This document shows positions 825 through 29,660 of a DNA stretch of 35,043 nt, piece by piece. The notes under the pieces were generated by a model. It saw only the letters and a list, made by a program, of their open reading frames with translations, did not search any database and was not told the origin of the DNA. Positions within the stretch are counted from its first letter, which is position 1. Each line of letters starts with the position of its first letter. Source of the DNA: a virus; IMG/VR virus record IMGVR_UViG_3300011116_000846, positions 1 to 35,043 of that record. One strand, given 5' to 3'. A program made the position numbers and the translations under genes.

Positions 825-2039
825 TTAGGCATAATTATTCGCAATTTTTATTAAATCATTTTCGTAATGTCTTACTGAACTAATATGGAATTTAAATATA
901 TCCATTTCATAATAACCAACTGATATTTCATTCTCTGTTAAAATCTCCGATAATCTTTCAATAAATATAAAGTTATTTTGGTTTAACATCGTACCATCAA
1001 ACTCAACAACAATATCATTTTCGCAAATAGGGTCGTGGTGGTTAATTAAACGAATTCTTTTACTCAAATCAAACTTTGTATTTTTTTGTTCTTCTTCAAT
1101 ATAATTAGTGGTTATCACACCCATATCATCCTCAATATATATTTTATCACACCAAGGTTCTAATGCTCTCAATAAATCTAAATTACAATTCTTTACTACT
1201 AACCCAACACCATATTTGTGGGGGATGATTGGTTTCATAAATTCATCGTGCTTTACAAAATGACCCCACTTACGGATAAAGTTTCTTGATGAACGAATAT
1301 TTTGAGCCTCCCATTCGTTTGAATTTTTACCAACTTGTGTTAGCAATGGATTGAATCTACTACCCCTACAAGTCATATGATAAACGCACCCCTTCCAAGT
1401 CTGAATAAAATTAACACCATTTAATTGAAATCTATTAAAAATATCCGAATCCTCTTTTGATTGTGGTGCGTATAAAGAATCATGCCCACCTATTTCTAAA
1501 AAATCTGATTTATAAAATGCCCAAGGAGCAAAAACACCTTCAGTTATTTCATTGTTTTTAAAATTATCAACACTATTGAACCAATTTAAAAAGTCCAATT
1601 CATTAAATTGTTCCGGCTCAACTCCCCAATCAGATAAAACTTTTTCAGGACCATCTGGGTGTAGTGGTGGTTCTATTCTAGTAAGAGAGACAATTGTTTT
1701 TGGTTTTATATACTTTTCTATTTCATCTATTGCGTTTGGACAAAGATACATATCAGCATGATATATCATACATATGTCATATGTAGCTACTTCATTAACT
1801 AAACGATCATATAAAATGGTATGTCCTAATCTAGTGGGGCCTGTATTACGTATGGCTTTGAAATTAGGGTCAAGCTGCATCATATCTAAACACCATTGCC
1901 ATGTAGAGTCTTTATCACTAAAATCGTCAGCTACACAGATTTGCACGGTATGATTTCCCTGATTCTTGCGTATGGCGTCATATGACCATTTAAGATATTT
2001 GAGATTATTTCTACTCGGTTGTATTATTGAAATTTTCAT
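825..2039 (-). CDS. Family 2-type glycosyltransferase with extra C-terminal domain
   Basis: This protein has 404 residues. The N-terminus (MKISIIQPSRNNLKYLKWSY) and the following VADDFSDKDST are the nucleotide-binding start of a GT-A fold, family 2 glycosyltransferase. A DxD-like HADMYL lies near residue 94, and an EDSDIF motif near 196 is in the position of the acceptor/ED motif. After about residue 270 the sequence changes to a segment starting PHKYGVGLVVKNCN that I cannot assign; it may be a second small domain. The enzyme should move a sugar from a nucleotide donor to a glycan or protein acceptor in the cytoplasm. The start overlaps the epimerase gene upstream by 4 bases (ATGA), and no Shine-Dalgarno is visible. 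It is the last gene of the glycan block. Confidence 0.8.
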   Translation of the reverse strand: MKISIIQPSRNNLKYLKWSYDAIRKNQGNHTVQICVADDFSDKDSTWQWCLDMMQLDPNFKAIRNTGPTRLGHTILYDRLVNEVATYDICMIYHADMYLCPNAIDEIEKYIKPKTIVSLTRIEPPLHPDGPEKVLSDWGVEPEQFNELDFLNWFNSVDNFKNNEITEGVFAPWAFYKSDFLEIGGHDSLYAPQSKEDSDIFNRFQLNGVNFIQTWKGCVYHMTCRGSRFNPLLTQVGKNSNEWEAQNIRSSRNFIRKWGHFVKHDEFMKPIIPHKYGVGLVVKNCNLDLLRALEPWCDKIYIEDDMGVITTNYIEEEQKNTKFDLSKRIRLINHHDPICENDIVVEFDGTMLNQNNFIFIERLSEILTENEISVGYYEMDIFKFHISSVRHYENDLIKIANNYA

Positions 2040-2974
2040 TTTCTTGTAAAATAATTTATTGTATTGCGTAACCCGTTAGTTATGTCTACTAACACGTGAT
2101 AATTTAAATACTTATGAGCCTTATCAACTAAAGCTAATGATTTAGGTATATCTCCAACACGTGTTGGGCCATGTATGGCTTGTATATTAGATCCTAACAA
2201 ATTAGATATCAAGTCATATAATTCATTTATGCTAGTAGATGTGCCAGCGCCGATATTAAACGCTTGCCCGAAACATGTTTCATCGCTAGTAGTTAATGCC
2301 AATACATTAGCTAAAACTGCATTATCAACATATGTAAAGTCCCTAGAATATGACCCGTCCCCATTAATTACAGGCACTTCATTGTTTTGTAACTGAACTA
2401 TAAATTTTGGTATTACTGCCGCGTAATCACCATATGGATTTTGTCTAGGCCCGAATATATTAAAATATCGCAATCCTATAGTTTCGATATCATAACACTG
2501 TTTATATACACGAGCATATAATTCATTGATTTGTTTTGTAGCTGCATATGGAGATAGTGCATTACCTGTAGAAGACTCTTCCTTAGATAGAGATACATCG
2601 TCGCCATATACTGATGATGAAGATGCATATACAAATCTCTTAATACCTTTAATACGAGCTAACTCTAAGATATGATAAAACATATCAACATTATTCTTGT
2701 GATATAATTCTGGATTAATAATAGACTTAGGAACCGATCCTGTAGCTGCTTGATGGCATATAGCATCTACATTTAATTCGGCTGACCCATCTGTTAATTC
2801 TAATACATCTAAGTGTACAAACTTAAAATTAGGATGATGAAATATATGCCGTATATTATCAACCGCCCCAGACGATAAGTTGTCTATGCATATAACTGAA
2901 TGTCCTAGATCTAATAATCGATGGCATATATGCGATCCGATAAAGCCGGCACCGCCAGTAACTAAAATTTTCAT
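2036..2974 (-). CDS. NAD-dependent nucleotide-sugar epimerase/dehydratase (GalE/WbpP-like)
   Basis: This 312-residue protein is close to full length for an extended short-chain dehydrogenase acting on nucleotide sugars. It shows the NAD site TGGAGFIGSH at residues 6-15 and CIDNLSSG after beta strand 2. The catalytic serine lies in ASSSSVYG at about 117-124, with Y and K in SPYAATK at about 143-149, then RYFNIFGPRQ. RDFTYVDN and FNIGAG follow in the C-terminal substrate-binding part. The family interconverts C4 epimers of UDP-hexoses or uronic acids, but substrate cannot be read from sequence. The gene overlaps both neighbours by 4 bases. Its base composition (about 37% G+C on a sample line) is higher than that of most of the island. 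Confidence 0.88.
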   Translation of the reverse strand: MKILVTGGAGFIGSHICHRLLDLGHSVICIDNLSSGAVDNIRHIFHHPNFKFVHLDVLELTDGSAELNVDAICHQAATGSVPKSIINPELYHKNNVDMFYHILELARIKGIKRFVYASSSSVYGDDVSLSKEESSTGNALSPYAATKQINELYARVYKQCYDIETIGLRYFNIFGPRQNPYGDYAAVIPKFIVQLQNNEVPVINGDGSYSRDFTYVDNAVLANVLALTTSDETCFGQAFNIGAGTSTSINELYDLISNLLGSNIQAIHGPTRVGDIPKSLALVDKAHKYLNYHVLVDITNGLRNTINYFTRK

Positions 2975-3903
2975 AACGAATTAAATATTTGTTTCATGTT
3001 ATTAATAAATACAGATTCTTGATATAATCTGGTATATAATTCTTTTGTTTCTTCAGCACATGCATTATAAAAAGCAGTATCGCGTTTTAATCGATCAGCT
3101 AATTGTCGTGCTGTATATAAATCACCATCTGCTACTGACAATGATGGATGTAGATATTTTTGTGTATTTACGTTATTATATCCTATACATGGAATACCTA
3201 AATATGAACAATTTAAGTTAAATGTGCCTGCCGCGGCAGTACCTAACTGTACACCGTATTTTCTTTTAGATAATTCATATATCCAATGTGTCCATACAAT
3301 CCATGGCAAGTGATTTATATCTAATTTAGATTCTTCTGGCTTCATTCTGCCAGTTGTCGGGGCGTATATATCATCTGATAACATTTTGCCGATCACATAT
3401 GAATCAATACCACGATAGGCAGTAACCCAATTACCACCAACCATAACACCTGAACGTTCATTCGTATCAGCTTGGCAATAATCTGTGATCATCAAACTCT
3501 GCATTAGTTCGCAACGTACATTAGTAATACCCCTATAATACATTAAATCGTGATCATTATGGCATAATATCAGATTCATCTGTTGTAATAAGGTATAATA
3601 CCAAATTTGTGATTCTATAGAATCTCCTTGCCAATACCAATATGTACTTTCTTGCATTAATGCTATTTTAGAACATATACGCTTCATATGATCAATGACA
3701 GGCATATGAAATAGACGTTGCTTGTTTTTAGGTACTATGATTATGCCGATATCATACAAGCCGTCTGGTACACTATCTAATGATGATATCGGATGGTGAT
3801 ATGCATCTAATGCACATATCCATGCCATATCAGTACGCATATTAGGATTACTACGTGGTACTTTACCTTCATAACCGCCCTCAGTAAAAAATGCTATTTT
3901 CAT
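2971..3903 (-). CDS. Putative GT-B-fold glycosyltransferase
   Basis: This protein has 310 residues. It starts MKIAFFTEGGYEGKVPRSNPN, like the first strand and loop of a GT-B enzyme. A segment near residues 237-250 (GVQLGTAAAGTFNLNCSYLG followed by IPCIGYNN) resembles the donor-binding part of GT-B enzymes, where a small-residue loop precedes 'G.P.I'. No strongly diagnostic EX7E motif is present, so the family is unassigned. Its position between a nucleotide-sugar epimerase and a PIG-L deacetylase, with 4-base overlaps on both sides, supports a role in glycan assembly. It shares the higher G+C of the epimerase gene, so the two may have arrived together. Confidence 0.55.
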   Translation of the reverse strand: MKIAFFTEGGYEGKVPRSNPNMRTDMAWICALDAYHHPISSLDSVPDGLYDIGIIIVPKNKQRLFHMPVIDHMKRICSKIALMQESTYWYWQGDSIESQIWYYTLLQQMNLILCHNDHDLMYYRGITNVRCELMQSLMITDYCQADTNERSGVMVGGNWVTAYRGIDSYVIGKMLSDDIYAPTTGRMKPEESKLDINHLPWIVWTHWIYELSKRKYGVQLGTAAAGTFNLNCSYLGIPCIGYNNVNTQKYLHPSLSVADGDLYTARQLADRLKRDTAFYNACAEETKELYTRLYQESVFINNMKQIFNSL

Positions 3904-4535
3904 AAAAAAATCTGCTTAAATTTAAATTGTTCTACCTTTCCTATTTTTCTCTTAGAACATCTAAAATTAGAATGAAATTCATCTAATGTATTTATAGTAA
4001 AATAACTTCTATGTAATTGCGATTTAAACTCTGTTAGCATGTTTAATTTAGTATTATATACATTACTAATATCTATAAATACATTGGGAATCCATGTCTC
4101 CAACGTACTAGGTGAATAATATTCTATCAATGATAACGGATGTACACGTGTTAATGCATAACCTAAATTACATATGATCCTATGTTCAAAGTGACTATCA
4201 GTATCAGATGTAGTCATAATACAATCATATGATGAATTATTAGTGAAATTATTTTCTATGTAATGTACCCATTCATCCTCACCGAACTCTTTCAATAATT
4301 TTTTCTCTGTAAAATATAAGGTATAATTATTAACGTTTGACCTATTCCAAACATTTTTTACTTCAAGTATACGTCCCAAGCTTGTTGTACTATCACAATC
4401 TCCGCCCTGCGTTAAACATAATATATCAAAATGCGTATCTTGATATTTTAAAATAGTACCAGACATACTATATTCTACATCATCTGGATGTGGAGATAAA
4501 CACAAAACTTTATTAAAATTTAAAAACTTACTCAT
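3900..4535 (-). CDS. PIG-L/LmbE family deacetylase
   Basis: This is a 211-residue protein of typical length for the family. The zinc-binding motif PHPDDVE is at residues 15-21 (SPHPDDVEYSMSGT), followed by LCLTQGGD and later SDTDSHFEHRI at about 120-130, which matches the usual DxHxxHR zinc ligand and active-site motif. PIG-L enzymes are zinc hydrolases that remove N-acetyl groups from GlcNAc-containing substrates. Here the likely substrate is an acetamido sugar within the phage-directed glycan or its precursor, which is inference. It is translated with the downstream gene through a 4-base overlap. The 29-base gap upstream (4536-4564) holds no clear signal. Confidence 0.8.
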   Translation of the reverse strand: MSKFLNFNKVLCLSPHPDDVEYSMSGTILKYQDTHFDILCLTQGGDCDSTTSLGRILEVKNVWNRSNVNNYTLYFTEKKLLKEFGEDEWVHYIENNFTNNSSYDCIMTTSDTDSHFEHRIICNLGYALTRVHPLSLIEYYSPSTLETWIPNVFIDISNVYNTKLNMLTEFKSQLHRSYFTINTLDEFHSNFRCSKRKIGKVEQFKFKQIFL

Positions 4536-4564
4536 TATAACATAACTTTTTATGATTTAAACTA

Positions 4565-5293
4565 CTAACTTCTATATGCCATTTTATTTTCATAATCTAC
4601 TTTTAAATTTGGGTAAAATTTTGGTTGTATATATCTAAAAATATCTTGGTCCTGAGACCCTATCGGGTAATTTTTTGGATAAGAATTTAAATATTCATTA
4701 TACATATCCATTGTACATCCATGAGGAGTAATATACTTACTAGCTTCAGTAAACACTTTTGCTACGAATTCAGTTTCACCAATCCATACCCCAGAATTTA
4801 AGTATTTACCCATATGGATTGAATTTGCCCATGTCAATACATCTGGCATACATTTATATCCATCATAAGAAGTAGATGACATAAATAGCATTTTACATTC
4901 AAATTCATAAAAAATATCTAATACCTTTTTAGGGTCATCAATAAAAATTACATCTATAGCATCACAATATAAAATATATTTTGTATTACACTGTGGTAGG
5001 TAATTTAAAATCATTTCAATTTTAAAAGTATTTCTCCACGGAAGTCTACTACTTTTTAAAACTACCAAATCTTTTATACCCAAATATTCTAAATTACATT
5101 CTAATATTGACTTATTTTGATATCCCGATAATGAATCTATTATACGATCTTGCATTGTGCCGGAATTACGACATGTAATTATTGTAACATCTGATGGTAA
5201 TGAAAATGATGATTTGTGTGTAGAATTAGACATCATATGTTCAAATGTTCTCTTAACAAGATGTCTATCATGTATTATGGGCGTATTTGGCAT
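4565..5293 (-). CDS. Glycosyltransferase of the PLOD/procollagen galactosyltransferase type
   Basis: This protein has 242 residues. It carries the three markers of this GT-A group: a DxD-bearing strand YILYCDAIDVIFIDDP at about residues 108-123, YLNSGVWIGE at about 167-176, and GSQDQDIFRYI near 212-222. The N-terminal half (VTIITCRNSGTMQDRI) is less like the family but fits a nucleotide-binding strand. Related enzymes transfer galactose or glucose to hydroxylated residues or glycans. In a phage island it may act on a virion protein or a growing glycan. A 2-oxoglutarate oxygenase is encoded at 8322-8963, so a hydroxylation-then-glycosylation pair is conceivable but speculative. The start is 1 base from the upstream stop. 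Confidence 0.75.
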   Translation of the reverse strand: MPNTPIIHDRHLVKRTFEHMMSNSTHKSSFSLPSDVTIITCRNSGTMQDRIIDSLSGYQNKSILECNLEYLGIKDLVVLKSSRLPWRNTFKIEMILNYLPQCNTKYILYCDAIDVIFIDDPKKVLDIFYEFECKMLFMSSTSYDGYKCMPDVLTWANSIHMGKYLNSGVWIGETEFVAKVFTEASKYITPHGCTMDMYNEYLNSYPKNYPIGSQDQDIFRYIQPKFYPNLKVDYENKMAYRS

Positions 5294-5294
5294 G

Positions 5295-6158
5295 TTATAA
5301 ACGCATTAAATTTAAAACGGATTGTTCGTAATGATTCTCATTACTATTATTGGAATGAATAAATCCACGCTCACCTTCAATACAATAAGCGCTAACGCGT
5401 TTGGTATTAGACAGCCAACGAGTTTTTTCTACATAACCTTGATACAAAAAATTGCGAAAATTTCCCGCATTAGTATTCCAATTTACAATTTCACTATAGT
5501 TAGGTGAAAATGTTTTATTTTCACGTGTTACATCAATCCCTTCCATTGAAAATTTATTATTAGGTAACTTATCTATTAATTCTCTCATATAAAAACTAAA
5601 CGAGCCACGAGGTGTAAAAGCTTTTGGTATGTATTCTGAATATCCGTTATCTAAAAATAACCAGTCCAAATTATTATTAACTAACTCTGTCTTAAATTGG
5701 TGGTGCAAATTTCCATATCTAGATTCTACTATAGGTTTATACAGTTTAGTATTTTTACTTAATATATCAATAAAAATATCAGTAGATAAGATTAAATTAT
5801 CATCATGTGTGATTAAAAATATATCATATTGTTTATAATCATAATCATCCGACCATTGATTAAATACCTCCATATCACCTATTGTATTAGGTTTTTCCAT
5901 ATATACCCAACCTAATTGACATAATTCATCTTCGGTAATAATATCACGATAAAGTTCTTTATCTAAACACATTAAAAAATTATCACCAGTGTAATTGCGT
6001 ACAACTTCTTTTTCATTAATTACATTTGGATCTGTTGGGTGTCTGTGAGATACTAAAAACAAATCTACATCCAATTCGTTGTGCGTTTTTTGAGCTGCCA
6101 TAGCTCTATAAAATTGAGATGCGTAGTGCCACCCACTAGCAATAACAGCTATTTTCAT
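5295..6158 (-). CDS. Unassigned protein of the glycan island, glycosyltransferase-like
   Basis: This 287-residue protein is not recognised with confidence. It begins MKIAVIASGWHYASQFYRAM, which looks like the first strand and helix of a Rossmann-type domain. YDIFLITHDDNLILSTDIF at about residues 110-128 resembles the DxD strand of GT-A glycosyltransferases. NAGNFRNFLYQG and a final GERGFIHSNNSNENHYEQSV are other conserved-looking blocks. Its place between a PLOD-type glycosyltransferase and a methyltransferase, with a 4-base overlap to the latter, supports a part in glycan assembly. It could also be a sugar-binding or regulatory protein. Confidence 0.45.
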   Translation of the reverse strand: MKIAVIASGWHYASQFYRAMAAQKTHNELDVDLFLVSHRHPTDPNVINEKEVVRNYTGDNFLMCLDKELYRDIITEDELCQLGWVYMEKPNTIGDMEVFNQWSDDYDYKQYDIFLITHDDNLILSTDIFIDILSKNTKLYKPIVESRYGNLHHQFKTELVNNNLDWLFLDNGYSEYIPKAFTPRGSFSFYMRELIDKLPNNKFSMEGIDVTRENKTFSPNYSEIVNWNTNAGNFRNFLYQGYVEKTRWLSNTKRVSAYCIEGERGFIHSNNSNENHYEQSVLNLMRL

Positions 6159-6691
6159 ATTAATAATTTTAATATAGATAAGCTAGTACGTGCACCTGAA
6201 ATATGGTTAAAATCAAAGATTGTACACCCCATATTTTTATGAAATAGAGCTAATGTATCTTTATTAATTCTAGGGTGTGCATCAGCCCCACCTTCTATTA
6301 CGACAATAGATCCTTTTTTAATTGTATTGTTGATAATATCATTTTTTATAACTACATCGTATATAGATTCCCATGTATTGTGTATATCAATTAGAATTAA
6401 ATCAAATTCAAATGGATTTGGTAAAAATAAGTCATAAATATCACCCTGATACAAAGTACAATATTGTAATAAATTACGTTCACTCAATCTAGACAAAGCT
6501 AATTCAGGAGATAAAACATCATATCCATACAGCTTACCATTGTATTGAGATAATGTATATGCCATAGCAACAGTGAGAGCACCAGTACCAAACCCCAATT
6601 CCACTACAGTATGTGGACGTACATCATTAACTAACTTATTTAAAACACGCTCATTATCTTGATACTTATGCTGTCCTACTAAATTTATCAT
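6155..6691 (-). CDS. Class I SAM-dependent methyltransferase, small
   Basis: This protein has 178 residues. Motif I (VVELGFGTGALTVAM) is at about residues 29-43 and an acidic residue ends strand 2 (LYGYDVLS). FDLILIDIHNTWESI forms motif post-I/II, and GSIVVIEGG is strand 5. The fold is that of O-methyltransferases, shortened at the C-terminus. The acceptor cannot be deduced; in this setting it is probably a sugar hydroxyl. It overlaps its neighbours by 4 bases on both sides. G+C is low, as in the rest of this part of the island. Confidence 0.75.
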   Translation of the reverse strand: MINLVGQHKYQDNERVLNKLVNDVRPHTVVELGFGTGALTVAMAYTLSQYNGKLYGYDVLSPELALSRLSERNLLQYCTLYQGDIYDLFLPNPFEFDLILIDIHNTWESIYDVVIKNDIINNTIKKGSIVVIEGGADAHPRINKDTLALFHKNMGCTIFDFNHISGARTSLSILKLLI

Positions 6692-7608
6692 ATATGTTTT
6701 TTTATTTTAGATATTATATATTTGATTTGTTTTTTTGTTAATTCCTCATGAAATGGGATACTAACCGTATTTTTTGAAATCCTATCAGACATGGGACATT
6801 CAAATTTTAATCCATTAGAATAAATTTCGTTTGAGTGTTGCGTATCATAATGAATACCACAAACTATACCAGATTCTTTAATGTGATTTATAAACATATT
6901 ACGATTGTTTACATTAATTCTGTATAAGTGGTCGCTGGTGTTTTCATAACCGAATTCTTTATTATAAATATATTTTATTTCCGCTAAAACTTCTTTTTTA
7001 CGGTCTAATTTCAATAAATTTTTATTAGCAATATATGATTGTATACTGTTCATATAAAATTTATATCCTGGTAAAATTATTTTACGATCCCAATTATTTT
7101 CAGCAAAACTCATACCATTAAATGATAAAGTTCGTAAGTAGTCAATTTTAGATTTATCATTACTAACAATAATACCACCATCACTACTACCCACAGGTTT
7201 GGTTGGATAAAAACTAAAAAACATTAAATCATTATCGTTTGCATCGGTTATAAATTGGTTTCGATCAACACGTTGAGCCGAGTCTATTATTTTATAATCT
7301 TCAAATTGATGCAATATATACGAACTACCAACCCAATGTGTATTATCTACAAAGTTAATTTTATTACCAGAAGTTATGATGGCGTTTAATACTACCGGTG
7401 GTATCATAGATGGTACATCAATTGTGGTATTTTTGTTCAAAAGCATTAAAAATATTGCGTTAGTAGCACTATTAACAGAACAGGCATATTTTGCACCTAC
7501 ATACTCTAAAAAATTATTTTCAAACTCCTCTACAATACTACCATGTAAATAATGAGAAAATTCATTTGTATTGATAGTATAATTTGGTATATTAAATAGT
7601 TGTATCAT
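6688..7608 (-). CDS. DegT/DnrJ/EryC1/StrS sugar aminotransferase, short form
   Basis: This 306-residue protein is shorter than the usual 360-390 residues of the family. The N-terminal part (VEEFENNFLEYVGAKYACSVNSATNAIFL) matches the PLP-phosphate site region 'E..f....g.k.a..v.sgt.al'. IIDSAQ at about residues 107-112 supplies the PLP-ring aspartate. SFYPTKPVGSSDGG at about 132-145 carries the Schiff-base lysine. The C-terminal domain is compact but retains GIHYDTQHSNEIY and VSIPFHEELT. The family transfers amino groups to keto-sugars on nucleotides. With the FdtA-like cupin at 8956-9384 it suggests a 3-amino-3,6-dideoxyhexose product. The gene overlaps the upstream reductase by 17 bases. Confidence 0.85.
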   Translation of the reverse strand: MIQLFNIPNYTINTNEFSHYLHGSIVEEFENNFLEYVGAKYACSVNSATNAIFLMLLNKNTTIDVPSMIPPVVLNAIITSGNKINFVDNTHWVGSSYILHQFEDYKIIDSAQRVDRNQFITDANDNDLMFFSFYPTKPVGSSDGGIIVSNDKSKIDYLRTLSFNGMSFAENNWDRKIILPGYKFYMNSIQSYIANKNLLKLDRKKEVLAEIKYIYNKEFGYENTSDHLYRINVNNRNMFINHIKESGIVCGIHYDTQHSNEIYSNGLKFECPMSDRISKNTVSIPFHEELTKKQIKYIISKIKKHI

Positions 7609-8311: not shown

Positions 8312-8321
8312 TAGAATACTA

Positions 8322-9384: not shown

Positions 9385-9387
9385 ATT

Positions 9388-9771: not shown

Positions 9772-9821
9772 ATACTTTTATGTTTATCTAATGAGGATAA
9801 ATCTTTTTTTAAAATTTCCAT
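9768..9821 (-). CDS. Possible 17-residue leader peptide before the RmlC-like cupin
   Basis: A 17-codon frame (MEILKKDLSSLDKHKSI) starts 8 bases after the C-methyltransferase stop and ends in ATGA, overlapping the start of the cupin. This is the same coupling used across the island, so it may be a translated spacer that carries ribosomes to the cupin, or the remnant of a lost gene end. No Shine-Dalgarno is visible. It is too short to identify and could be chance in A/T-rich DNA. Confidence 0.25.
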   Translation of the reverse strand: MEILKKDLSSLDKHKSI

Positions 9822-9828
9822 AATTTTT

Positions 9829-11672: not shown

Positions 11673-11682
11673 ATATTTAAAT

Positions 11683-14747: not shown

Positions 14748-14757
14748 ATTGTTATTT

Positions 14758-16622: not shown

Positions 16623-16645
16623 TTTAATTTTATATTTTAATTTAT

Positions 16646-16676: not shown

Positions 16677-16693
16677 ACTTTATATCTTTAATT

Positions 16694-19430: not shown

Positions 19431-19435
19431 ATTAT

Positions 19436-22623: not shown

Positions 22624-23363
22624 TGCTTTCTTAATAACTTTGCCGGATTACCTATCATAACAGAATTAGATTCAACATCTTTTATCACCACCGCTCCTAA
22701 TCCGATTAATACATTATCTCCTATCGTTAATTGATTTTTTATAGAACTTGAGGGAGATATCCAACAATTTTTACCAATCTTAACACTCCCCGCAATCATC
22801 GCATTTGCAATTACTTGGGTATTTTCTCCTATTTCTACATTATGTGCAATATGTACTAAATTATCAACTTTAACCCCTTTTCGTAAAATTGTATTACTTA
22901 ATGCACCTCTAGCTATACATACATTATTTCCAATTTCAACATCATCTTCTAATATGATATTACCAAAATGCGGGAATTTAATTAATTTATTTGTATCCGT
23001 ATCTAAAATATATTGATAACCATCTTGACCAATAGAACAATATTCACCAATAACAACATTATTACCTTTAATTATTTTACATATATTTGGTTTAAAAAAA
23101 CTATTAATACATTTAATAAAACTTAGTTTTGGATTATTAGATATAATAACTAAGTTATTAATTTGTTCGGGATATTTGTTTGCAAATACTACGCCGGCAT
23201 TATTATTTCTCCAACCAGTATCTATAAAAGATATTTGAGTTTTTATAGCTTCATTTATATTCCAAGGAGAATCAATATTATCTTCTGTAGATATATTATT
23301 ACCGAGTTGGTAATCCAAATTATTTTGAATAGCCCAATTTATTATGTTAGATATATAAACCAT
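22620..23363 (-). CDS. LpxD-like left-handed beta-helix N-acyltransferase
   Basis: This protein has 247 residues, shorter than LpxD (about 340). IGEYCSIGQDGYQYILDTDT, FPHFGNIILEDDVEIGNNVC, IARGALSNTILRKG, VDNLVHIAHNVEIGENTQVI and IAGSVKIGKNCWI are hexapeptide-repeat coils matching LpxD block by block. The catalytic histidine of 'HIAHNV' is at 171-174 (by analogy the second histidine). The N-terminal uridine-binding domain is shortened. Family members transfer an acyl chain from acyl carrier protein (LpxD) or an acetyl group from CoA to an amino sugar. With the deacetylase-fold protein next door it suggests a remodelled amide on an amino sugar. Confidence 0.82.
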   Translation of the reverse strand: MVYISNIINWAIQNNLDYQLGNNISTEDNIDSPWNINEAIKTQISFIDTGWRNNNAGVVFANKYPEQINNLVIISNNPKLSFIKCINSFFKPNICKIIKGNNVVIGEYCSIGQDGYQYILDTDTNKLIKFPHFGNIILEDDVEIGNNVCIARGALSNTILRKGVKVDNLVHIAHNVEIGENTQVIANAMIAGSVKIGKNCWISPSSSIKNQLTIGDNVLIGLGAVVIKDVESNSVMIGNPAKLLRKQ

Positions 23364-23366
23364 ACG

Positions 23367-24086
23367 TTATTTTTTATTATCATGTTTTTTGTAACAAAAA
23401 TACTTATTATCTCTAGTTTCGCCAGGAATATAATTAAACTTAAATTGTTGCTTCCATGCTACATAATTAAAACTAAGTTGGTCACGTTTACTAAAGTATT
23501 TTATCTCAGTCCACCATTCCTCCATAGCATTAACGCAATCAAGCTCATTATGCCGACGTAAAATAATACCACCAACAATTAATCCGTTATTTGCTGGATA
23601 TTTTTTTTCCTTATATCGTAATATTTGTCGCTGAATAATATCTGGATTATCTTTAAAGTTTAATTTACCACGCTCCGGCGTACGTTGCATATTTAACATA
23701 CCAGCATTTATAATAAAATCAGCTTCTTCGTATAAACAGTTACGTTTATCGTACGCAGGTTGTTGATTATGATTAAAAAATGCTGCATTACAATCCGCTA
23801 AATACATATCAATTAATATATTAATATCTTCTCTTATTTCAAAATTTCCATCCATATAAATACTAATATCATATTCTGATAAATATCTATGAGGTAATAT
23901 CTTATATTTTTTAGCATTTCTAACAGGATCATTGTATAAATTAGATACTTTTATTATTTTCCAATCAACCGATTGTATATCAGATTCAGTAAAACAAATA
24001 AAATCACAATTTGGTGGTTGATATGTAACTTTAGGTAAGTTATCATAGCTATTAAAAATAGATGTATATATTGCTATTCGTTTCAT
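23367..24086 (-). CDS. DUF616/TOD1-type glycosyltransferase
   Basis: This protein has 239 residues. The family pattern is clear: IAIYTSIFNSYDNLP at the start, CDFICFTESDIQSVDWKII, and DPVRNAKKYKILPHRYLSEY. ISIYMDGNFEI, with the DxN in place of DxD, follows at about 75-85. KRNCLYEEADFI, LIVGGIILRRHNE, then WWTEIKYFSKRDQLSFNYVAW complete it. DUF616 proteins are GT-A-like transferases in capsule clusters and in plants. The gene lies 3 bases from the LpxD-like gene downstream and overlaps the GT9-like gene upstream by 4 bases. Confidence 0.82.
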   Translation of the reverse strand: MKRIAIYTSIFNSYDNLPKVTYQPPNCDFICFTESDIQSVDWKIIKVSNLYNDPVRNAKKYKILPHRYLSEYDISIYMDGNFEIREDINILIDMYLADCNAAFFNHNQQPAYDKRNCLYEEADFIINAGMLNMQRTPERGKLNFKDNPDIIQRQILRYKEKKYPANNGLIVGGIILRRHNELDCVNAMEEWWTEIKYFSKRDQLSFNYVAWKQQFKFNYIPGETRDNKYFCYKKHDNKK

Positions 24087-24970
24087 AAATACTTAATACC
24101 TTTAACAAAATTTAATTCTAATTCAGATTGCCGTTGAACTTCATATACATCAGAATATCTAGCAACTATGTGATTAGTGCCACATTGATTGGATATATTA
24201 ATCAGTGCTTTAGATTTTATGTATAGTTGTATACGTAGTGATATATTACGCATATCTAATGCTTTATTAATAAAATTAAATGGCGTTTCGCAAATTGGTA
24301 GATAAGACCAATAAAAATACGGAAGATTAAATGATTTTAATATTTGTGTCATTTTATTTGTATCATTTGTTAATGATGAAATGTTTTGTTTACCAAATTG
24401 GGTGCCAAATCTATTTGATATTAACAATGCACCAAAGTTATTGTCGCCAGCATATTCACGAATAATAGAATCACCTAAAACAGATTCTGCATGAGACCAA
24501 TACATTTCAGGTTGGGAATCTGATAACTCATCATTCGAAAATTGCCAAAATTTTAAAATTTGCTCAATTAATGGTGTGTTTGGTTTTTTATCAGAATATA
24601 TACGATAGTGGTCGTGAAATACATCTCCATCTACACTATCTATATTACCATCAATGTATGGGTTATTATCAAATAACGATAGTGCGTCTGCATATTTAGT
24701 ATCAAATATATCTAGTTTACCAAATAATTTTTCCAATAATGTTATAGATGGTATATATATTTTACAATGTGGGTATTTTTGTTTAAGAAGTCTTGGCATA
24801 GCTGTTATTATACCCCAATCTCCAATTCCAAAACAAGTTCGTAGAATTACAAATTTTTGTTCTTGTAGATACTTATCAGGTATGAATGAAGGATTATCTA
24901 TTGAAAATCCAAGTTTATTGACGTCATCAACTTTATAAAGTTGATTATTATATATTCTCCAAAAAATCAT
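24083..24970 (-). CDS. GT9-like glycosyltransferase
   Basis: This protein has 295 residues. KFVILRTCFGIGDWGIITAMPRLLKQKYPH at about residues 39-68 matches the start of GT9 heptosyltransferases ('iLiir...lGD.v...P.l..lk..yP'). KALINISNQCGTNHIVARYSD near the C-terminus matches the GT9 donor loop ('i..dtG..HlAa'). The middle is divergent. It may transfer a heptose or related sugar. Its start lies within the overlap with the UDP-sugar dehydrogenase gene, which is where base composition changes from island to phage-like values. Confidence 0.65.
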   Translation of the reverse strand: MIFWRIYNNQLYKVDDVNKLGFSIDNPSFIPDKYLQEQKFVILRTCFGIGDWGIITAMPRLLKQKYPHCKIYIPSITLLEKLFGKLDIFDTKYADALSLFDNNPYIDGNIDSVDGDVFHDHYRIYSDKKPNTPLIEQILKFWQFSNDELSDSQPEMYWSHAESVLGDSIIREYAGDNNFGALLISNRFGTQFGKQNISSLTNDTNKMTQILKSFNLPYFYWSYLPICETPFNFINKALDMRNISLRIQLYIKSKALINISNQCGTNHIVARYSDVYEVQRQSELELNFVKGIKYL

Positions 24971-25791
24971 TTTGAAACCGCCCTTCCTTTCATTTTTTCC
25001 CAGTCCTTGTCAGACCTAACCTCTAAATTTGTTTTCCAACCACCTTCAATAGTGTTTAGTGGTACTCCCAAATCGTTTGCCATTTTAGTTATTGCATTTA
25101 CATCTTTTGGAAAACAAGTTCCACCATATCCTAATTTACCATCTGGACCAGGAACATGCAGATGCGAATCTCCTATCCTACCATCGGATGCAAACCCATA
25201 TAAAGCATCATTCCAATTAGCACCCAATGCTGAAGCTAATCTATAAAACTCATTCATTATAGAAACTTTTGTAGCAAAAAATGAATTGTTCATATACTTT
25301 ATAAGTTCTGCTGTAGTAGAATCGGTATGAATGTAATGTCTATTCATAAACCTAATAGAAAATAATTTTTCTAATTCTTTAGTTAGTTTTATATCACCAC
25401 CAAATATAACTCTGGCTTGAGTCAACATATCCAACTTAGCGGTTCTTTCAGTCAAAAACTCAGGACTAAAAACAATTTTTAAATTTGGATTTTGAGATTG
25501 TAATCTTTTAGTGGTTCCTGGTAAAACTGTAGATTTTAAGATATAAATTGGGTTTGATGTACAATTTTTAAAAACGGATTCTACATAAGATATATCTTGC
25601 TCACCACCCTCTTTCATCGGAGTTGGCACACACACAAAAACAAAATCAGAATCGTTTACCTCATCCAAAGTGTGGGTTGATTTTAATGGGTCTATATCAT
25701 ATATTCTAACATCCGATACAGGACTAAATGCAAAGGCTATAGATTCACCCACAAATCCATTGCCTATAATTCCAACTTTATAGCGAATCAT
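24967..25791 (-). CDS. UDP-glucose/GDP-mannose dehydrogenase, short form lacking C-terminal domain
   Basis: With the start taken at the ATG at 25789-25791 the protein has 274 residues; the frame is open further upstream, but the extra residues fall inside the previous gene and do not fit the family. GIIGNGFVGES at 8-16 is the NAD site and VFSPEFLTERTA at 107-118 is the substrate clamp. AELIKYMNNSF at 161-171 holds the active-site Lys and Asn, and GYGGTCFPKD at 221-230 holds the nucleophilic Cys226. The family oxidises UDP-hexoses to uronic acids in two NAD steps. The usual 120-150-residue C-terminal nucleotide-binding domain is absent, with no frame remnant. All catalytic residues remain, so it may work as a compact form or on another donor. 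Confidence 0.85.
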   Translation of the reverse strand: MIRYKVGIIGNGFVGESIAFAFSPVSDVRIYDIDPLKSTHTLDEVNDSDFVFVCVPTPMKEGGEQDISYVESVFKNCTSNPIYILKSTVLPGTTKRLQSQNPNLKIVFSPEFLTERTAKLDMLTQARVIFGGDIKLTKELEKLFSIRFMNRHYIHTDSTTAELIKYMNNSFFATKVSIMNEFYRLASALGANWNDALYGFASDGRIGDSHLHVPGPDGKLGYGGTCFPKDVNAITKMANDLGVPLNTIEGGWKTNLEVRSDKDWEKMKGRAVSK

Positions 25792-26401
25792 AATAATTAT
25801 TTTGTTTTTCTTGTCTTTCAATTGTTTTGGGATGATACAACGACCACTCTTCTTCCATAGGAAGGTAAGCGAATTGTTTATGCCCATCAAGTCTTTCATG
25901 TACTTTATTTATCCACTTTATTTCAGGAGTGTTTCTATAAATACGAGTTTGAAAATCAGGCCAATTCACCCACCCATTTTCATTTACATTCCACCCCCAC
26001 TTTTGAATGTGCTGAGGTGTTAAACCTTCTACCGTGTTTACTCTCGGAACAGCGTATAAATCAACTGAAGAATTGTTTTCTAAAACCAAAGGTAATTGAG
26101 ATATCAGATTTTCGTGTGGTAATTCATCCGCATCAATCTGAAAGATGTAATCACCACTACAAAGAGAATTTAGATAATTTTTATGGTCTGCAAAATGATT
26201 ATCAAAATCCCTACTATACCACTTATACCAGTCCAATAAGGAGTAGGCTTTGAGTATATCCAAAACTTTAGATGTTCCATTTTTAGAATCAAAAAGAACA
26301 ACAATTTCATCTTCTTCCCTCTTTTTTTCTAAAAGGAATCCAAGCAATCTTTGGATTTCTATTTCTTCATTTTTGACTGTTAATCCGTAACTTAGTTTCA
26401 T
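25778..26401 (-). CDS. Family 2-type glycosyltransferase
   Basis: This protein has 207 residues. MKLSYGLTVKNEEIEIQRLL is the classical GT2 start, and DEIVVLFDSKNGTSKVLDI is the second strand. GDYIFQIDADELPHENL at about residues 83-99 carries DxD. WVNWPDFQTRIYRN and WINKVHERLDG match GT2 enzymes of the WaaE/SunS kind ('w..f..Rl.r.......v.E'). It overlaps the UDP-sugar dehydrogenase downstream by 14 bases and the upstream gene by 35 bases. Its base composition is phage-like rather than island-like. Confidence 0.83.
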   Translation of the reverse strand: MKLSYGLTVKNEEIEIQRLLGFLLEKKREEDEIVVLFDSKNGTSKVLDILKAYSLLDWYKWYSRDFDNHFADHKNYLNSLCSGDYIFQIDADELPHENLISQLPLVLENNSSVDLYAVPRVNTVEGLTPQHIQKWGWNVNENGWVNWPDFQTRIYRNTPEIKWINKVHERLDGHKQFAYLPMEEEWSLYHPKTIERQEKQNNYYDSL

Positions 26402-26885
26402 TTATTTCTTGTTCGTTTGTTTTTTGTTGTGCTTCTCTTACATTCTTTGGTTCTACCATATCAACAGGTTTGTATTTGTAATTGTAAACTACTGCTGATT
26501 TGATGTTTTTCCATATAAAGGTTCTATATCCTTCTTGCAACAATTTGTTTCTAATTTTTGCGGTATATATCCCCTTTGATGCTTCATTGAACTCTAACTT
26601 TGCTAATTGTAATTTTTTAACCCTTGCTGATTCGGATATTATTTCAGGAAATTCTTTTGATAATCTTTCAAATATTTGAGGTCTTAAATAATTCAAGTCT
26701 AAGCAATGAAAGTAGTTTTTGTATCTTGGTTCTAAAACAAGCACCCAATAATAATTTAATTCACCATTTACCTTTTCATACTGAAGCTTTGCTACCATTC
26801 CCCTTTCCAAATACATTTTGTTTAGAGGTTGCGCATCACTCAATCTGAGTAAGTGTTGATTTATGAATTTCTTATCCGTTGACAT
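26367..26885 (-). CDS. Phage protein of unknown function
   Basis: This 172-residue protein is unrecognised. It starts MSTDKKFINQHLLRLSDAQP. A central part (GMVAKLQYEKVNGELNYYWVLVLEP and NYFHCLDLNYLRPQIFERL) looks like a small beta barrel followed by a helix. YRTFIWKNIKSAVVYNYKYKP is a conserved-looking block that reminds me of hypothetical proteins near structural or replication genes in T4-like phages, but I cannot name a family. The tail is polar. It overlaps genes at both ends (14 and 35 bases). No membrane segment, signal peptide or catalytic motif is seen. Confidence 0.7.
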   Translation of the reverse strand: MSTDKKFINQHLLRLSDAQPLNKMYLERGMVAKLQYEKVNGELNYYWVLVLEPRYKNYFHCLDLNYLRPQIFERLSKEFPEIISESARVKKLQLAKLEFNEASKGIYTAKIRNKLLQEGYRTFIWKNIKSAVVYNYKYKPVDMVEPKNVREAQQKTNEQEINETKLRINSQK

Positions 26886-28242
26886 CTACTTTTTTCAATT
26901 CAGGTAGTTTTATTTTTGGTGGTTCGTTTGTTTCACCAACCTTTTTAAGCTTTGGTAATTCAATCTTTTTAAGTGTTGGTAGTTTTAAACCAACCATTTG
27001 AGGAGCGGAGTCTGCCCCATACTTTTCCAAGTATTCAGATAACTTTTGGGTCATTTTATCAAAGGTAAAGTTATCTTTTGCATACTTACGATTCTTTCTG
27101 GATAGTTCTAAATACTTATTGTAATTTTCATACATATCTTTCATATACCCAGCTGCTTCGCTTATATTGATTTTAAACCACTTAGAACCTTTAATCAACC
27201 AATCATTTACTGCTGATTTATGTATTTCTTCTAATTCCCCACTAACTAACACATTAAAACCATTATCCAAAAAGTCCATATGACCACTCCACTTAGGAGC
27301 AATGATTGGTTTACCACTTATCATTGCTTCTAATAGTGGTCTGCCGAATCCTTCACCCTTTGTGAATGATAGATGGGCTTTAACCTTTGTATGGTTGTAT
27401 AGGGAGTTCATTTCAATATCTGATAAATCACCACTCAATAAATAAATATTAGGTAGTTTTGATTCCCCACTTTCTTTTCGGACCTGCTCTTTCAACGATT
27501 CAATTCTTTTCCGTATCTCGTGAGTATCCACATAAGAAGGCGCCATTAAACTTGTTTTTAGAACAAGAGCAGGTGGGGTTTTTTTACCTTTGAATGTTTG
27601 TAAAAAGGTGTATATCATCGCACATACATTCTTACGGTCTTGCCCACATTCGCCAGGCAACCAATGTCCTACGAATAGAAAGCAAAACTCTTCTGAAACA
27701 TCACTCAATACATCTTTTATAGATTGTTCAACAGGCAGCTTATTATCGTATATCTGCTCATCAAACCCTTCAAACAAAACTTCAACAGGCTTCGTTAATC
27801 CTAACTCACCAACCTTTTGCTGAGTTTTTTCATCCTGCATATCATACTTTACCTCCAACCCAGATTTGGCGTGGTTGGATGATACCAAAGTTAGATTCAT
27901 TCTATTACACCCCTCAATAAATTGAGGTGAAGCTTGATTTGTTTCAATCCCCGCAGTTATACCAATATTATAGTTACCCATCGGTTGGAACTCATTTGGT
28001 ATTGTAATTTGTATCCAAACATCAGGCTTTTGATTAATCTGCCCTAAAACCAATCTACTCACCAAATCATCATCTATTGGTGATATCAAAGCGTTTTGAG
28101 GTGTAGCACCCCATCTCTGAGGTAAAATCTTAACATCCCAATCCGGCCTTGCTTTTATCAAACTACGGACAAAGTCACGACTACGCGCACCGTATCCACT
28201 ACGGGTTGCTATTGGGCAACTAACTATACATAACTTCTTCAT
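26872..28242 (-). CDS. GT4-type glycosyltransferase with basic LPxLKK tail
   Basis: This 456-residue GT-B protein has an N-terminal domain with SCPIATRSGYGARSRDFV (acceptor side, residues 8-25). The C-terminal domain has LFVGHWLPGECGQDRKN at about 189-205, LSFTKGEGFGRPLLEAM (291-307, with the EX7E motif E297 to E305) and KPIIAPKWSGHMDFL. These are the usual GT4 donor-binding elements. Residues 418-456 are a low-complexity basic tail with three copies of LPxLKK. The neighbouring glycosyltransferase has a matching motif at its N-terminus. The gene lies between the replication block and the glycan island, with phage-like composition. Target unknown: protein, glycan or modified DNA base are all possible. 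Confidence 0.85.
   Translation of the reverse strand: MKKLCIVSCPIATRSGYGARSRDFVRSLIKARPDWDVKILPQRWGATPQNALISPIDDDLVSRLVLGQINQKPDVWIQITIPNEFQPMGNYNIGITAGIETNQASPQFIEGCNRMNLTLVSSNHAKSGLEVKYDMQDEKTQQKVGELGLTKPVEVLFEGFDEQIYDNKLPVEQSIKDVLSDVSEEFCFLFVGHWLPGECGQDRKNVCAMIYTFLQTFKGKKTPPALVLKTSLMAPSYVDTHEIRKRIESLKEQVRKESGESKLPNIYLLSGDLSDIEMNSLYNHTKVKAHLSFTKGEGFGRPLLEAMISGKPIIAPKWSGHMDFLDNGFNVLVSGELEEIHKSAVNDWLIKGSKWFKINISEAAGYMKDMYENYNKYLELSRKNRKYAKDNFTFDKMTQKLSEYLEKYGADSAPQMVGLKLPTLKKIELPKLKKVGETNEPPKIKLPELKKVDVNG
26875..26991 (-). repeat. Repeated LPxLKK motif in the glycosyltransferase tail
   Basis: The last 39 codons of the glycosyltransferase encode three short copies: LKLPTLKKI, ELPKLKKV and KIKLPELKKV. 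The first codons of the upstream glycosyltransferase (29601-29660) encode MELKLPKLRKI. At DNA level both places contain taagctttggtaatt on the plus strand (around 26945-26960 and 29635-29651), so the shared motif is a sequence duplication, not only a similar composition. Confidence 0.7.
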
Positions 28243-29660
28243 ACTTTTACTATTTCAAACTTTTTACGAGGTTTCCAATTTTCAAATACCGTCTCCATTG
28301 ATTCAATAAAGGTTTCACCCATTTTTTCAGCTGTCATATTACCAACACCATTTACAAATGCGTGCGCTAACATCCCTGCTTTTGCTCTTTCATCTGCTGG
28401 GGTATCATACCATTCCTTAATTGCGTTTCCAAACTCTCTGAAATCACATCTATCATCAAATATATAAGGTGTCAATGGTGAACCTTGTAATGAACGATTT
28501 GATGGCCATACCGGCTTTACCCATTCACCCCAAGTCAATCTACTCAAATAATCGGAACGAACATCATGCAATGAACCCAATTCCAAATAATCATCTTCGG
28601 TTAAGAACTTACCATCCATTTTAAACCCGCATTGGTCTTGCAATCCACCAGTAACATTTACCACAATTGGTAAGCCAGCTCTCATCCCCTCACAAGTACT
28701 CAACCCAAAACCTTCATTGGATGTAAGGTTTACAATTATATCACCTGAGTTGTAGTACAGATTTAATTCTTCAGTTGATATGCCAGGATTTGTAAATACA
28801 TATTTACCGCCACTGGAACAATTCTTAATAACTTCAGGTATATCAGTTCCATTTTCATCTACAGGTTGTGTATGTAAAAACAAACAAACCTTATCACGCT
28901 TCTCCTTTGGTAATTGTTGAACAAAACTATCAAACGCAATAATCAAATCACCTGGTTGTTTTCTACGAATATTTCTATTGTTCCACAACACCACAAATTC
29001 CATATCATCAATTCCATACTTTTTCTTAAACTCCACCAATTTTTCATTATCTTTTGGTAGTGGTTTAAAATGTTCGGATACACCATGTGGTACATACTTA
29101 AATGTCCAATCAGGTAAATCCATACCATACTTTTTCAAACACCTTTTGTTGATACCATATGTTTGTTTTGATATCGCCATCAGCAAATCACAACTTGCGT
29201 AATAAGGTGAATTCCACAATGGGTCGGGTAAATCATCCCAAATATTATAATAAAATATTGGAATCATCTGCCTGATTTCATGCTCCATCTGATACAACCA
29301 TATCCAATATCTTGGGTCGGTAAAGTGTAGAATAGCATCAGGCCTTTCCACATTTATCAATTGACGAACAATATCAGGATTTCCATATCCATTGGTGCAG
29401 TATATTTTTAGATATGCATCCTCAACACCAGTTTCTTTTGCAGCATCCTGCGATACATCCAAAACCTTTCCGTTTTCTGGGTGATTTAATGCAGCACCTA
29501 ATTGAACCCAATCGTATTTGTGTAGGGTTTTTAGAACAAACTCTTTTGATTGAGTTGCTATTCCACTAAATAATCTTAAATCATCTGAAAGAAGGAGTAT
29601 CTTCTTTTTCTTTGGTTTGTTAGGGTCTATTTTCCTAAGCTTTGGTAATTTTAATTCCAT
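28239..29660 (-). CDS. GT4-type glycosyltransferase with basic N-terminal extension
   Basis: This protein has 473 residues. After a lysine- and proline-rich start (MELKLPKLRKIDPNKPKKKK), the GT-B fold begins at ILLLSDDLRLFSGIATQSKEFV (21-42). FKYVPHGVSEHFKPLP at 187-202, VLWNNRNIRRKQPGDLIIAF at 224-243 and IIVNLTSNEGFGLSTCEGMRAG at 308-329 (E316 and E324 of the EX7E motif) are GT4 hallmarks. It is translated with the second GT4 through a 4-base ATGA overlap and shares the LPKLKK-type motif with its tail. The 37-base gap upstream has TATAAT on the minus strand but no matching -35, and no clear Shine-Dalgarno. Confidence 0.86.
   Translation of the reverse strand: MELKLPKLRKIDPNKPKKKKILLLSDDLRLFSGIATQSKEFVLKTLHKYDWVQLGAALNHPENGKVLDVSQDAAKETGVEDAYLKIYCTNGYGNPDIVRQLINVERPDAILHFTDPRYWIWLYQMEHEIRQMIPIFYYNIWDDLPDPLWNSPYYASCDLLMAISKQTYGINKRCLKKYGMDLPDWTFKYVPHGVSEHFKPLPKDNEKLVEFKKKYGIDDMEFVVLWNNRNIRRKQPGDLIIAFDSFVQQLPKEKRDKVCLFLHTQPVDENGTDIPEVIKNCSSGGKYVFTNPGISTEELNLYYNSGDIIVNLTSNEGFGLSTCEGMRAGLPIVVNVTGGLQDQCGFKMDGKFLTEDDYLELGSLHDVRSDYLSRLTWGEWVKPVWPSNRSLQGSPLTPYIFDDRCDFREFGNAIKEWYDTPADERAKAGMLAHAFVNGVGNMTAEKMGETFIESMETVFENWKPRKKFEIVKV

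Follow-up and report, generated by a model that had tools for sequence, protein, structure and literature searches.

A gene block whose layout recalls that of a capsule or O-antigen locus, minus the membrane machinery, occupies positions 825-29660 of the window analysed here (the whole 35,043-nt stretch, IMG/VR record IMGVR_UViG_3300011116_000846, positions 1 to 35,043, to which all coordinates refer), and viral glycosylation is its best explanation. The model favoured here, with a probability of roughly one half, proposes cytoplasmic assembly, on a virion protein, of a core glycan that is decorated differently in each strain, by analogy with chloroviruses and Megavirinae. It draws upon an island in which neither transmembrane segments nor the export families searched for were found, upon conserved and apparently phage-restricted border genes, upon the match of one of these to the chlorovirus protein B736L, and upon exchange of the island between phages.

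The island comprises 34 open reading frames (ORFs), all on the minus strand and densely packed without visible breaks; 30 of the 33 adjacent pairs overlap or lie no more than 12 bases apart, and the largest gap is 71. A Pfam search of all 34 bears out the original prediction of a glycan block of about 30 genes, the content being chiefly sugar tailoring, transfer, and decoration (Table 1). Transferases above the Pfam cut-off are GT2 (825, 25778), GT_PLOD (4565), GT9 (15498), TOD1/MUCI70 (23367), and group 1 (26872, 28239), and ORF 11683 matches DUF5672. Every kind of decoration that had been predicted has its Pfam family: C-methyl (9829) and other methyl transfer (11025, 12415 and, below cut-off, 6155), carbamoyl (13119), hexapeptide acyl (22620), DegT amino (6688), and PIG-L deacetyl (3900); ORF 21892 may be a NodB-like deacetylase, as read from its motif without a database match. 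The predicted donor synthesis holds in part, as tailoring enzymes are present (2036, 7592, 8956, 9388, 16694-21096, 24967) but the pathway looks incomplete, with no match to a sugar-phosphate nucleotidyltransferase family among the 34 ORFs in Pfam. The broad family GDP_Man_Dehyd matches 2036, 7592, and 16694, in each of which Epimerase or RmlD outscores it, and none of ten ORFs tested with NCBIfam rose above a curated cut-off, 4,6-dehydratases included.

Portions of this repertoire recur elsewhere. Part of the amino-sugar cassette (6845-9740) is found again, at 79% nucleotide identity, in another island (L239), and the heptose-like cassette, composed of an epimerase, a PfkB/RfaE-like kinase, a fused E1-type ThDP enzyme, a Zn-ADH, and an SDR, keeps the gene order of its counterparts in P-TIM68 (27, 52, 73, 60, and 33% identity). 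Eight of 19 relatives of 21083 match PF01501 (best E 4e-8), the window copy having no match. ORFs 5295, 14758, 24083, 26367, and 2971 received no family assignment in Pfam; relatives of 24083 gave no useful Pfam match either, and the profiles of 21083 and 24083 gave none in the PDB. The idea that the PLOD-type transferase points generally to hydroxylysine glycosylation was rejected, since the window alone has it (1 of 22 records).

Table 1. Features of the window, with position, strand and basis of assignment.
Feature	Position	Strand	Basis or remark
Distal border transferase, GT2-type	825..2039	-	PF00535; family in 7/8 whole relatives
Exchangeable island interior, 24.9 kb	855..25787	-	Contig G019 has 15.9 kb without nucleotide similarity instead
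Nucleotide-sugar epimerase type	2036..2974	-	PF01370; nearest NCBIfam TviC, below cut-off
Possible GT-B transferase (weak)	2971..3903	-	Profile match to group-1 transferases, E 0.04 only
PIG-L-type deacetylase	3900..4535	-	PF02585
PLOD-type transferase domain	4565..5293	-	PF25342, barely above cut-off
Amino-sugar cassette: DegT, RmlD-like, 2OG oxygenase, two FdtA/cupins	6688..9771	-	Pfam
Sugar C-methyltransferase	9829..11028	-	PF08484
FkbM methyltransferase	11025..11672	-	PF05050
Carbamoyltransferase	13119..14747	-	PF16861, PF02543
GT9 (heptosyltransferase family)	15498..16622	-	PF01075
Heptose-like cassette	16694..21096	-	Pfam, NCBIfam (latter below curated cut-off)
GT8-family transferase	21083..21895	-	Relatives' matches to PF01501
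Hexapeptide acyltransferase	22620..23363	-	PF00132
TOD1/MUCI70-type transferase	23367..24086	-	PF04765
Short nucleotide-sugar dehydrogenase	24967..25899	-	PF00984, PF03721
Border transferase 3, GT2	25778..26401	-	Pfam; 8/8 whole relatives
Conserved small protein between border transferases	26367..26885	-	7/8 whole relatives; barrel-like AF2 model, pLDDT 83
Border transferase 2, group 1	26872..28242	-	Pfam; 142/158 loci, 8/8 whole relatives
Border transferase 1, group 1/GT4-like, GT-B fold model	28239..29660	-	Pfam Glycos_transf_1
Promoter-like octamer ATATTTAT	29684..29691	-	~24 nt before border transferase 1
T4-like backbone	29698..35043	-	Pfam, PHROG

The absence of any membrane step, also claimed originally, is confirmed in the island by hydropathy and extended to relatives by family searches. 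No transmembrane segment was predicted in the 34 ORFs, across which mean hydropathy reached 1.6 or more over 19 residues at only one position, in the dehydrogenase 19436; the E. coli flippase and polymerase, as controls, gave 9 and 6 segments. The Wzx, priming, WecA, Wzy_C, and ABC-2 families were absent from the 19-21 records covered per search (PF01943, 0/19 and 0/20; PF02397, 0/1 for the window and 0/21; PF00953 and PF04932, 0/20 each, the window among the 20; PF01061, the ABC-2 membrane exporter, 0/20 including the window), while bacterial controls were detected in these searches. By families and hydropathy, the flippase, polymerase, and polyprenyl-phosphate priming transferase of a Wzx/Wzy-type O-antigen or capsule locus are thus missing, as is the exporter of an ABC-transporter-dependent polysaccharide locus by family search, and a flippase hidden among the family-less genes is ruled out. 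Two small proteins with hydrophobic segments are encoded directly outside the island (1-542). Among same-strand inner ORFs of 100 aa or more from 51 sources with both borders, 1 of 443 was flagged by hydropathy (G019, 18393-19535); it is 95.5% identical to an ORF of G001 (7729-8874) that, read by eye, is probably a DegT aminotransferase, and a short match to the DegT gene of the window (35% over 65 residues) is consistent with this. At least three hydrophobic segments occur in eight ORFs among 158 loci, namely three in P-TIM68 (two being PsaA and PsaB), two in immuto, and one each in L039 (on the slot's upstream side), L136 and L016 (antisense to slot genes). Elsewhere, the relatives encode two conserved proteins, one of ~375 and one of ~720 aa, each with several hydrophobic segments and neither with an assignment; these are counted against the favoured model.

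The slot has three transferases (25778-29660) at one end and one (825-2039) at the other, with exchangeable contents between. Both flanks of contig G019 are 98-99% identical to the window, and the identity falls at about 25788, at the 3' end of border transferase 3. This is the one pair in which exchange is visible with both flanks; two further contigs lose similarity at the same border. The six-pair count omits contig G025 (96.8%), which starts near the border, and G021, G022, G023, G024, and G026 are 91-92% identical to the window or lower. In its architecture, the slot resembles a capsule-like exchange locus, with conserved border genes and non-homologous interiors swapped between near-identical genomes. 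Since G019 has both flanks, and the same slot occurs in eight whole relatives, a chimera of phage and host, which the original prediction had named as its possible undoing, is ruled out; the whole-island swap between near-identical phages is something that prediction could not see. That T4-like phages can carry sugar islands was known before, and what is new is the serotype-like exchange of whole islands between conserved borders; no description of this exchange locus was found in the literature searched (titles and starts of abstracts, with few subscription journals covered).

Border transferase 1 is present in all eight whole relatives and in 153 of the 158 loci, which were in part fetched using this gene itself. 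Its top solved-structure match, by sequence and by fold, is chlorovirus B736L, whose lead over other GT4 structures is modest and whose own function is described as not established (PMC4691112, PMC5408694). A collection of 84,980 genomes contained 11 loci of the border transferase, 10 of them adjoining the partner transferase; at the search depth used, the gene looks phage-restricted. It had no match in Synechococcus or Prochlorococcus phages. The distal border transferase has 50% identity in Flavobacterium phage immuto, and only 31% in G019. The favoured model is further supported by the small protein 26367, which weakly resembles T4 gp2, a DNA end protector and head protein. The Foldseek and hhalign signals are all weak: against the gp2 profile, P was 1.3e-4 and the score 34, compared with 22.8 for the best of 84 core families, whose alignments were shallower than that of 26367 (A1), and in the reverse direction P was 6e-4 with a probability of 28%, HMM E-values exceeding 0.03. 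In VIA-align, the model of 26367 resembled RimP- and WYL-like barrels (Z 6.1 or less), and Foldseek on the PDB returned nothing significant, so that its identity with gp2 is suggestive only.

Beyond the slot, the backbone encodes a SLOG-like protein (below cut-off), exonuclease/PD-(D/E)XK, DUF3310, the gp44 clamp loader, DruA, and the gp45 clamp, the names PD-(D/E)XK and DUF3310 being assigned by position relative to immuto. Membership in the T4-like phages is indicated in the window by the gp45 clamp (PHROG) and a clamp-loader AAA protein with a weak Gp44 lid match, and in relatives by the major head protein gp23 and terminase gp17 (G005) and the portal gp20 (G003); no phages close to the window at the DNA level were found. 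The octamer ATATTTAT precedes border transferase 1 in 59 of 92 distinct upstreams, compared with 107 of 1290 ORFs (at least 100 aa, eight relatives), and also lies ahead of the portal gene in five of seven cases. It is not enriched in virion-block families (5/36 vs. 3/28 families, p = 1), and late timing inferred from it is therefore unsupported; a second cluster, 11-15 nt before ORFs, is putatively overlapping coding sequence. The T4 late promoter TATAAATA was likewise rejected, with 14 occurrences in the window against 15.1 expected by chance, and 0 in 98 island upstreams.

The favoured model proposes that soluble enzymes turn host sugar nucleotides into unusual sugars, that, within the bacterial cytoplasm, the three conserved transferases would assemble a core on an acceptor, most probably a virion protein, and that enzymes of the exchangeable interior, together with the distal transferase, would lengthen and decorate this core, giving each strain its own type of glycan. 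We infer this order of action, as well as the core glycan, the acceptor, and a diversifying selection exerted by whatever it is that recognises the particle. Autonomous virion glycosylation of the chlorovirus/Megavirinae type would involve a glycan bound covalently to a virion protein, besides transferases and donor enzymes that are soluble and encoded by the virus; the island has both kinds of enzyme, the donor set being seemingly incomplete. No conserved Ser/Thr-rich acceptor candidate was seen among the protein families of the whole relatives, inspected by eye. Genes of the GT9 and heptose type commonly belong to LPS pathways, which counts against this model. Of the interpretation first offered, which left open a cytoplasmic target (virion protein or DNA) or use of the host export path, the cytoplasmic target is favoured, with virion protein preferred over DNA.

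An unlikely, though substantial, alternative is that the sugars are placed onto host lipid-linked or lipid A-core precursors and leave by host export, altering the surface glycan and so hiding the infected cell from grazers or from other phages. The GT9, RfaE-like kinase, and heptose-epimerase-like genes would fit such a role, as would the five-gene cassette that the interior has in common with a cyanophage cluster, and this is the published interpretation of cyanophage and pelagimyophage clusters (PMC2984593, PMC7029224). However, priming, flippase, polymerase, and exporter families number 0 in the records searched, and every one of many island types would have to satisfy the specificity of host flippase and ligase. 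A glycan on phage DNA bases, as a hypermodification against restriction, appears improbable. DNA glucosylation by T4-like phages is established, the island adjoins replication genes, and a DruA-like gene lies nearby; however, some 12 transferases exceed any base glycan known to us. Virus transferases that hypermodify DNA with glycans have been cited (PMC12619734), but the T4 glucosyltransferase family is absent from the window's Pfam matches. Further, of 19 records with the border transferases, 4 lack a gene of the thymidylate-synthase family (PF00303, which does not separate synthase from hydroxymethylase), the other 15 having one; three of the four are possibly fragments, and Mel-JY01 is a complete genome. 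TET/JBP matched 0 of 19 records, a weak argument given a silent control. On these grounds a virion protein is favoured over DNA. Least probable is that the island, unused as a pathway, serves headful packaging as mobile ballast: stuffer DNA has been suggested as a possibility for cyanophage clusters (PMC3037559), but the close packing of the ORFs, the retention of border genes in 8/8 whole relatives, and the recurrent upstream motif ATATTTAT argue otherwise.

If the glycan is indeed on virions, capsule-like type switching would occur in phages, bearing on how hosts are recognised, on phage defence, and on the survival of particles. Somewhat tentatively, such phages may have serotypes of their own, through an autonomous, membrane-free system, a strain-specific virion glycan, and a locus whose entire contents, between conserved borders, are swapped among near-identical phages; this would be a bacteriophage counterpart both of capsule switching in bacteria and of glycosylation in giant viruses. 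In T4-like phages from aquatic habitats, the sugar clusters have been termed LPS genes, with their use described as not known (PMC3037559, PMC2984593). As the conserved slot provides a seemingly phage-restricted marker, with over 200 environmental relatives (223 confirmed stretches) and a cultured relative with both borders, Flavobacterium phage immuto 2-6A, the acceptor question is directly testable.

Among known systems, capsid glycosylation of chloroviruses (PBCV-1, NY-2A) likewise employs virus-encoded transferases that are for the most part soluble, along with some sugar-donor enzymes, with two transferases common to all 43 viruses and virus-specific decorations besides (PMC5408694), and B736L is the closest solved relative of border transferase 1. 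However, the chlorovirus host is eukaryotic, the PBCV-1 transferase genes are dispersed across the genome, two of six having transmembrane domains, and the acceptor (Vp54) is known. The Megavirinae fibril clusters, of 6 to 33 genes, similarly combine nucleotide-sugar pathways, transferases, and clade-specific sugars (PMC10117803), but belong to giant viruses that infect amoebae; the abstract and introduction of that source do not mention exchange among near-identical viruses. The cyanophage LPS clusters (P-SSM2, S-SM2, S-SSM7, P-TIM68) are also large sugar islands of T4-like phages, and the five-gene cassette is common to the window and P-TIM68, and partly to S-SM2. The size of the island, originally called unusual, is not unique, as 24 such genes are divided between two clusters in P-SSM2 (PMC2984593) and S-SM2 has a comparable run. 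Those clusters lie near hli03 and/or phoH, proximal to tRNAs (PMC3037559), whereas the window slot lies beside gp44 and a nuclease, and no tRNA was found in the window. The pelagimyophage host recognition cluster is also a hypervariable island with glycosyltransferases, but is located between VrlC and gp14 with tail fibres (PMC7029224), rather than beside clamp-loader genes. Closest in position are Flavobacterium phage immuto 2-6A and Microcystis phage Mel-JY01, in which this slot likewise follows PD-(D/E)XK and contains these border transferases; immuto shares the distal border gene too, but its interior measures only 6.3 kb, and Mel-JY01 differs in a smaller interior, an extra gene between nuclease and transferase, and a first border transferase annotated as two pieces. 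In mycobacteriophage virion glycosylation we know of no large sugar-synthesis island, unlike in the window. The mycobacteriophages Che8, Corndog, and Myrna nonetheless resemble the system proposed here, in that phage-encoded transferases glycosylate their virion proteins (PMC12363180).

The window, an entire IMG/VR record of 35,043 bp, represents a fragment of a phage genome, with the main ORFs on the minus strand. In transcription order, gp45 is followed by a DruA-family gene, gp44, small genes, a PD-(D/E)XK-type nuclease and a SLOG-like protein, then by the border transferases 28239, 26872 and 25778 (ORFs are named by start coordinate), with 26367, which has no assigned role, between the latter two. 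A further 29 ORFs, sugar enzymes for the most part, come next, followed by a distal transferase and small proteins (Table). The borders recur among relatives: across 158 loci, many of them short, homologs were found of 28239 in 153, of 26872 in 142 (both counts inflated, because most loci were fetched with one or the other) and of 25778 in 114, and genes between 2036 and 25899 have homologs in 0 to 45 of the same loci. All eight whole relatives, drawn from 17 records that measure 105 to 197 kb, have the three border transferases and the nuclease; 26367 is present in 7/8, as is the distal transferase family. The median border-to-border distance is 7.5 kb, and none of the 51 both-border sources exceeds the 25.0 kb of the window; 38 of these sources are loci clipped ~10 kb from the query gene, such that longer distances would be missed. 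The same slot occurs in the cultured Flavobacterium phage immuto 2-6A and in Microcystis phage Mel-JY01. In a collection of 84,980 genomes, the 28239 family was encountered at 11 loci, all on MAG contigs, 10 with the partner transferase adjoining and most with the nuclease; the border transferases thus appear phage-restricted, although the scan used two peptide patterns and distant bacterial relatives could go undetected.

Table. Coordinates of features in the window and in relative contigs (G- and L-handles)
Feature	Coordinates	Remarks
Small proteins beyond distal transferase	within 1-807	
Two small proteins with hydrophobic segments	1-542	Immediately beyond distal border; 100% identity in G019
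Distal border transferase	825-2039	
Various enzymes shorter than bacterial models	6688-8311, 16694-18228, 24967-25899	E.g., dehydrogenase 310 aa vs 413 positions, kinase 242 vs 315
E1-alpha/E1-beta-like fused ThDP enzyme	18228-19430	73% identity to cyanophage P-TIM68; adjoins Zn-ADH and RfaE-like kinase
Small conserved protein	26367-26885	
Octamer ATATTTAT	29684-29691 and relatives	Unlike T4 late promoter
DruA-family gene (PF14236)	33231-34448	~940 bp gone in 98% identical G019; remnant left
Carbamoyltransferase-13119-like gene	G003 49183-51018; G007 137788-139608	Immediately upstream of border transferase 1
Conserved protein, several hydrophobic segments	G005 58268-59392	7/8 whole relatives; in L170 and L176
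Conserved protein, several hydrophobic segments	G005 166772-168937	8/8 whole relatives; in L170 and L176
302-aa ORF, 7 hydrophobic segments	L039 2087-2995	Backbone side of slot; one contig

The original prediction had raised the possibility of a phage/host chimera, which was not borne out, as the 29.5-kb contig G019 carries both flanks around another island. Identity between the two is 98.8% over window 1-854 and 98.4% over 25788-33500, and in place of 855-25787 G019 has 15.9 kb for which blastn gave no match reaching 200 bp. The two junctions, at each of which identity drops in the space of tens of bases, map to the 3' ends of 825 and 25778. Homologs of 2/29 inner window ORFs are found in the G019 island (E up to 1e-10, 60% coverage), none at 70% identity or more. 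No other pair was seen with both flanks. Similarity is lost at the inner border in 6/6 pairs of the four contigs that span it and have backbones 97-99% identical (the window, G018, G019 and G020). Some close relatives do not differ: G021 and G026 have most of their island in common, at 85-95%, G022 and G024 are the same throughout their overlap, and several close pairs retain their island. Cassettes also travel singly, as window 6845-9740 is found again in L239 at 79%. The border-adjoining gene of G019 is 95.5% identical to a gene in the more distant G001, and cassette 16694-21096 matches cyanophage P-TIM68 in gene order, with proteins 27-73% identical. The G+C content of the interior is 29.1%, vs 34.5% and 34.1% on its two sides.

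The claim that the island encodes no membrane protein was upheld by a hydropathy scan, which detected zero transmembrane-like stretches in island proteins, and nine and six segments, respectively, in the E. coli K-12 flippase rfbX and polymerase wbbH. Among same-strand inner ORFs of at least 100 aa from 51 both-border sources (54 minus three whole-record duplicates; identical or nearly identical sources remain, e.g., G005/L099 and L267/L269), the scan flagged 1/443, with two segments; this ORF shares 95.5% identity with a protein read as a DegT aminotransferase and is therefore taken for a false positive. Family searches of records that may be fragments returned no Wzx in 19 records or in 20 other, shorter ones, no priming transferase in 21, and no WecA, Wzy_C or ABC-2 exporter in 20 each, the window included; controls were positive in 11 to 14 of 14 genomes for these searches (for Wzx, the 19-record one). 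Scan and searches together agree with the predicted absence of flippase, polymerase and priming transferase from the island and extend it to the relatives searched. Counting against this, two proteins encoded elsewhere in the relatives, about 375 and 720 aa long and conserved, have several hydrophobic segments.

In the most likely model, donor enzymes tailor sugar nucleotides supplied by the host (no nucleotidyltransferase was found among Pfam matches of the 34 island ORFs). A core would be assembled by the three border transferases and extended with strain-specific sugars by those of the interior, and methylation, carbamoylation, acylation and deacetylation would complete these sugars, the whole pathway taking place in the cytoplasm. 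The acceptor would most likely be a virion protein (probability roughly 0.5). An alternate scenario, in which a host surface glycan is modified and then exported by the host, is less probable. DNA is a doubtful acceptor. In immuto 2-6A a DpdA/queuosine-type DNA modification cluster is annotated, which gives that phage another route to DNA protection. That the island is mere ballast is very improbable. Lying among the transferases, 26367 has a barrel-like model and weak similarity to the T4 DNA end protector gp2; this faint signal is compatible with a link to the head and proves nothing.

Expression of the locus may be directed by ATATTTAT, probably a phage promoter element. Its strand bias toward core genes is strong in 4/8 whole relatives (G005, 32 vs 3; G007, 22 vs 2; G011, 39 vs 3; G008, 25 vs 4) and weaker or lacking in the other four, and its position peaks 25-35 nt upstream of ORFs. 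It precedes 28239 homologs in 59/92 distinct upstreams, vs 107/1290 ORFs generally; ahead of other backbone and border genes it occurs in 0 to 8 of 8 to 96, and ahead of the portal gene in 5/7. From this pattern we propose that the sugar locus has a promoter of its own; late timing is not claimed, because the virion block taken as a whole has no enrichment.

T4-like phages are already known to carry sugar clusters and pelagimyophages a hypervariable island with transferases, and glycosylation of phage virions is likewise known. What appears new is the combination of a single slot, conserved and apparently phage-restricted border transferases, whole-interior exchange between near-identical phages and absence of the export families; no description of such an exchange slot was found in the literature searched. 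In Megavirinae, fibril glycans are made by clusters that comprise 6 to 33 genes (PMC10117803). Chlorovirus NY-2A protein B736L tops the PDB matches of 28239, whether these are ranked by sequence (E 2.5e-13), by profile (1.6e-16) or by fold (rank 1, E 1.3e-14, TM 0.60/0.71), with other GT4 enzymes close behind in the fold ranking. Passages of PMC5408694 report early expression of the PBCV-1 transferases, as well as two transferases common to all chloroviruses and virus-specific decorations on the capsid protein, an arrangement of conserved and variable parts like that of the conserved borders and variable interior observed here.
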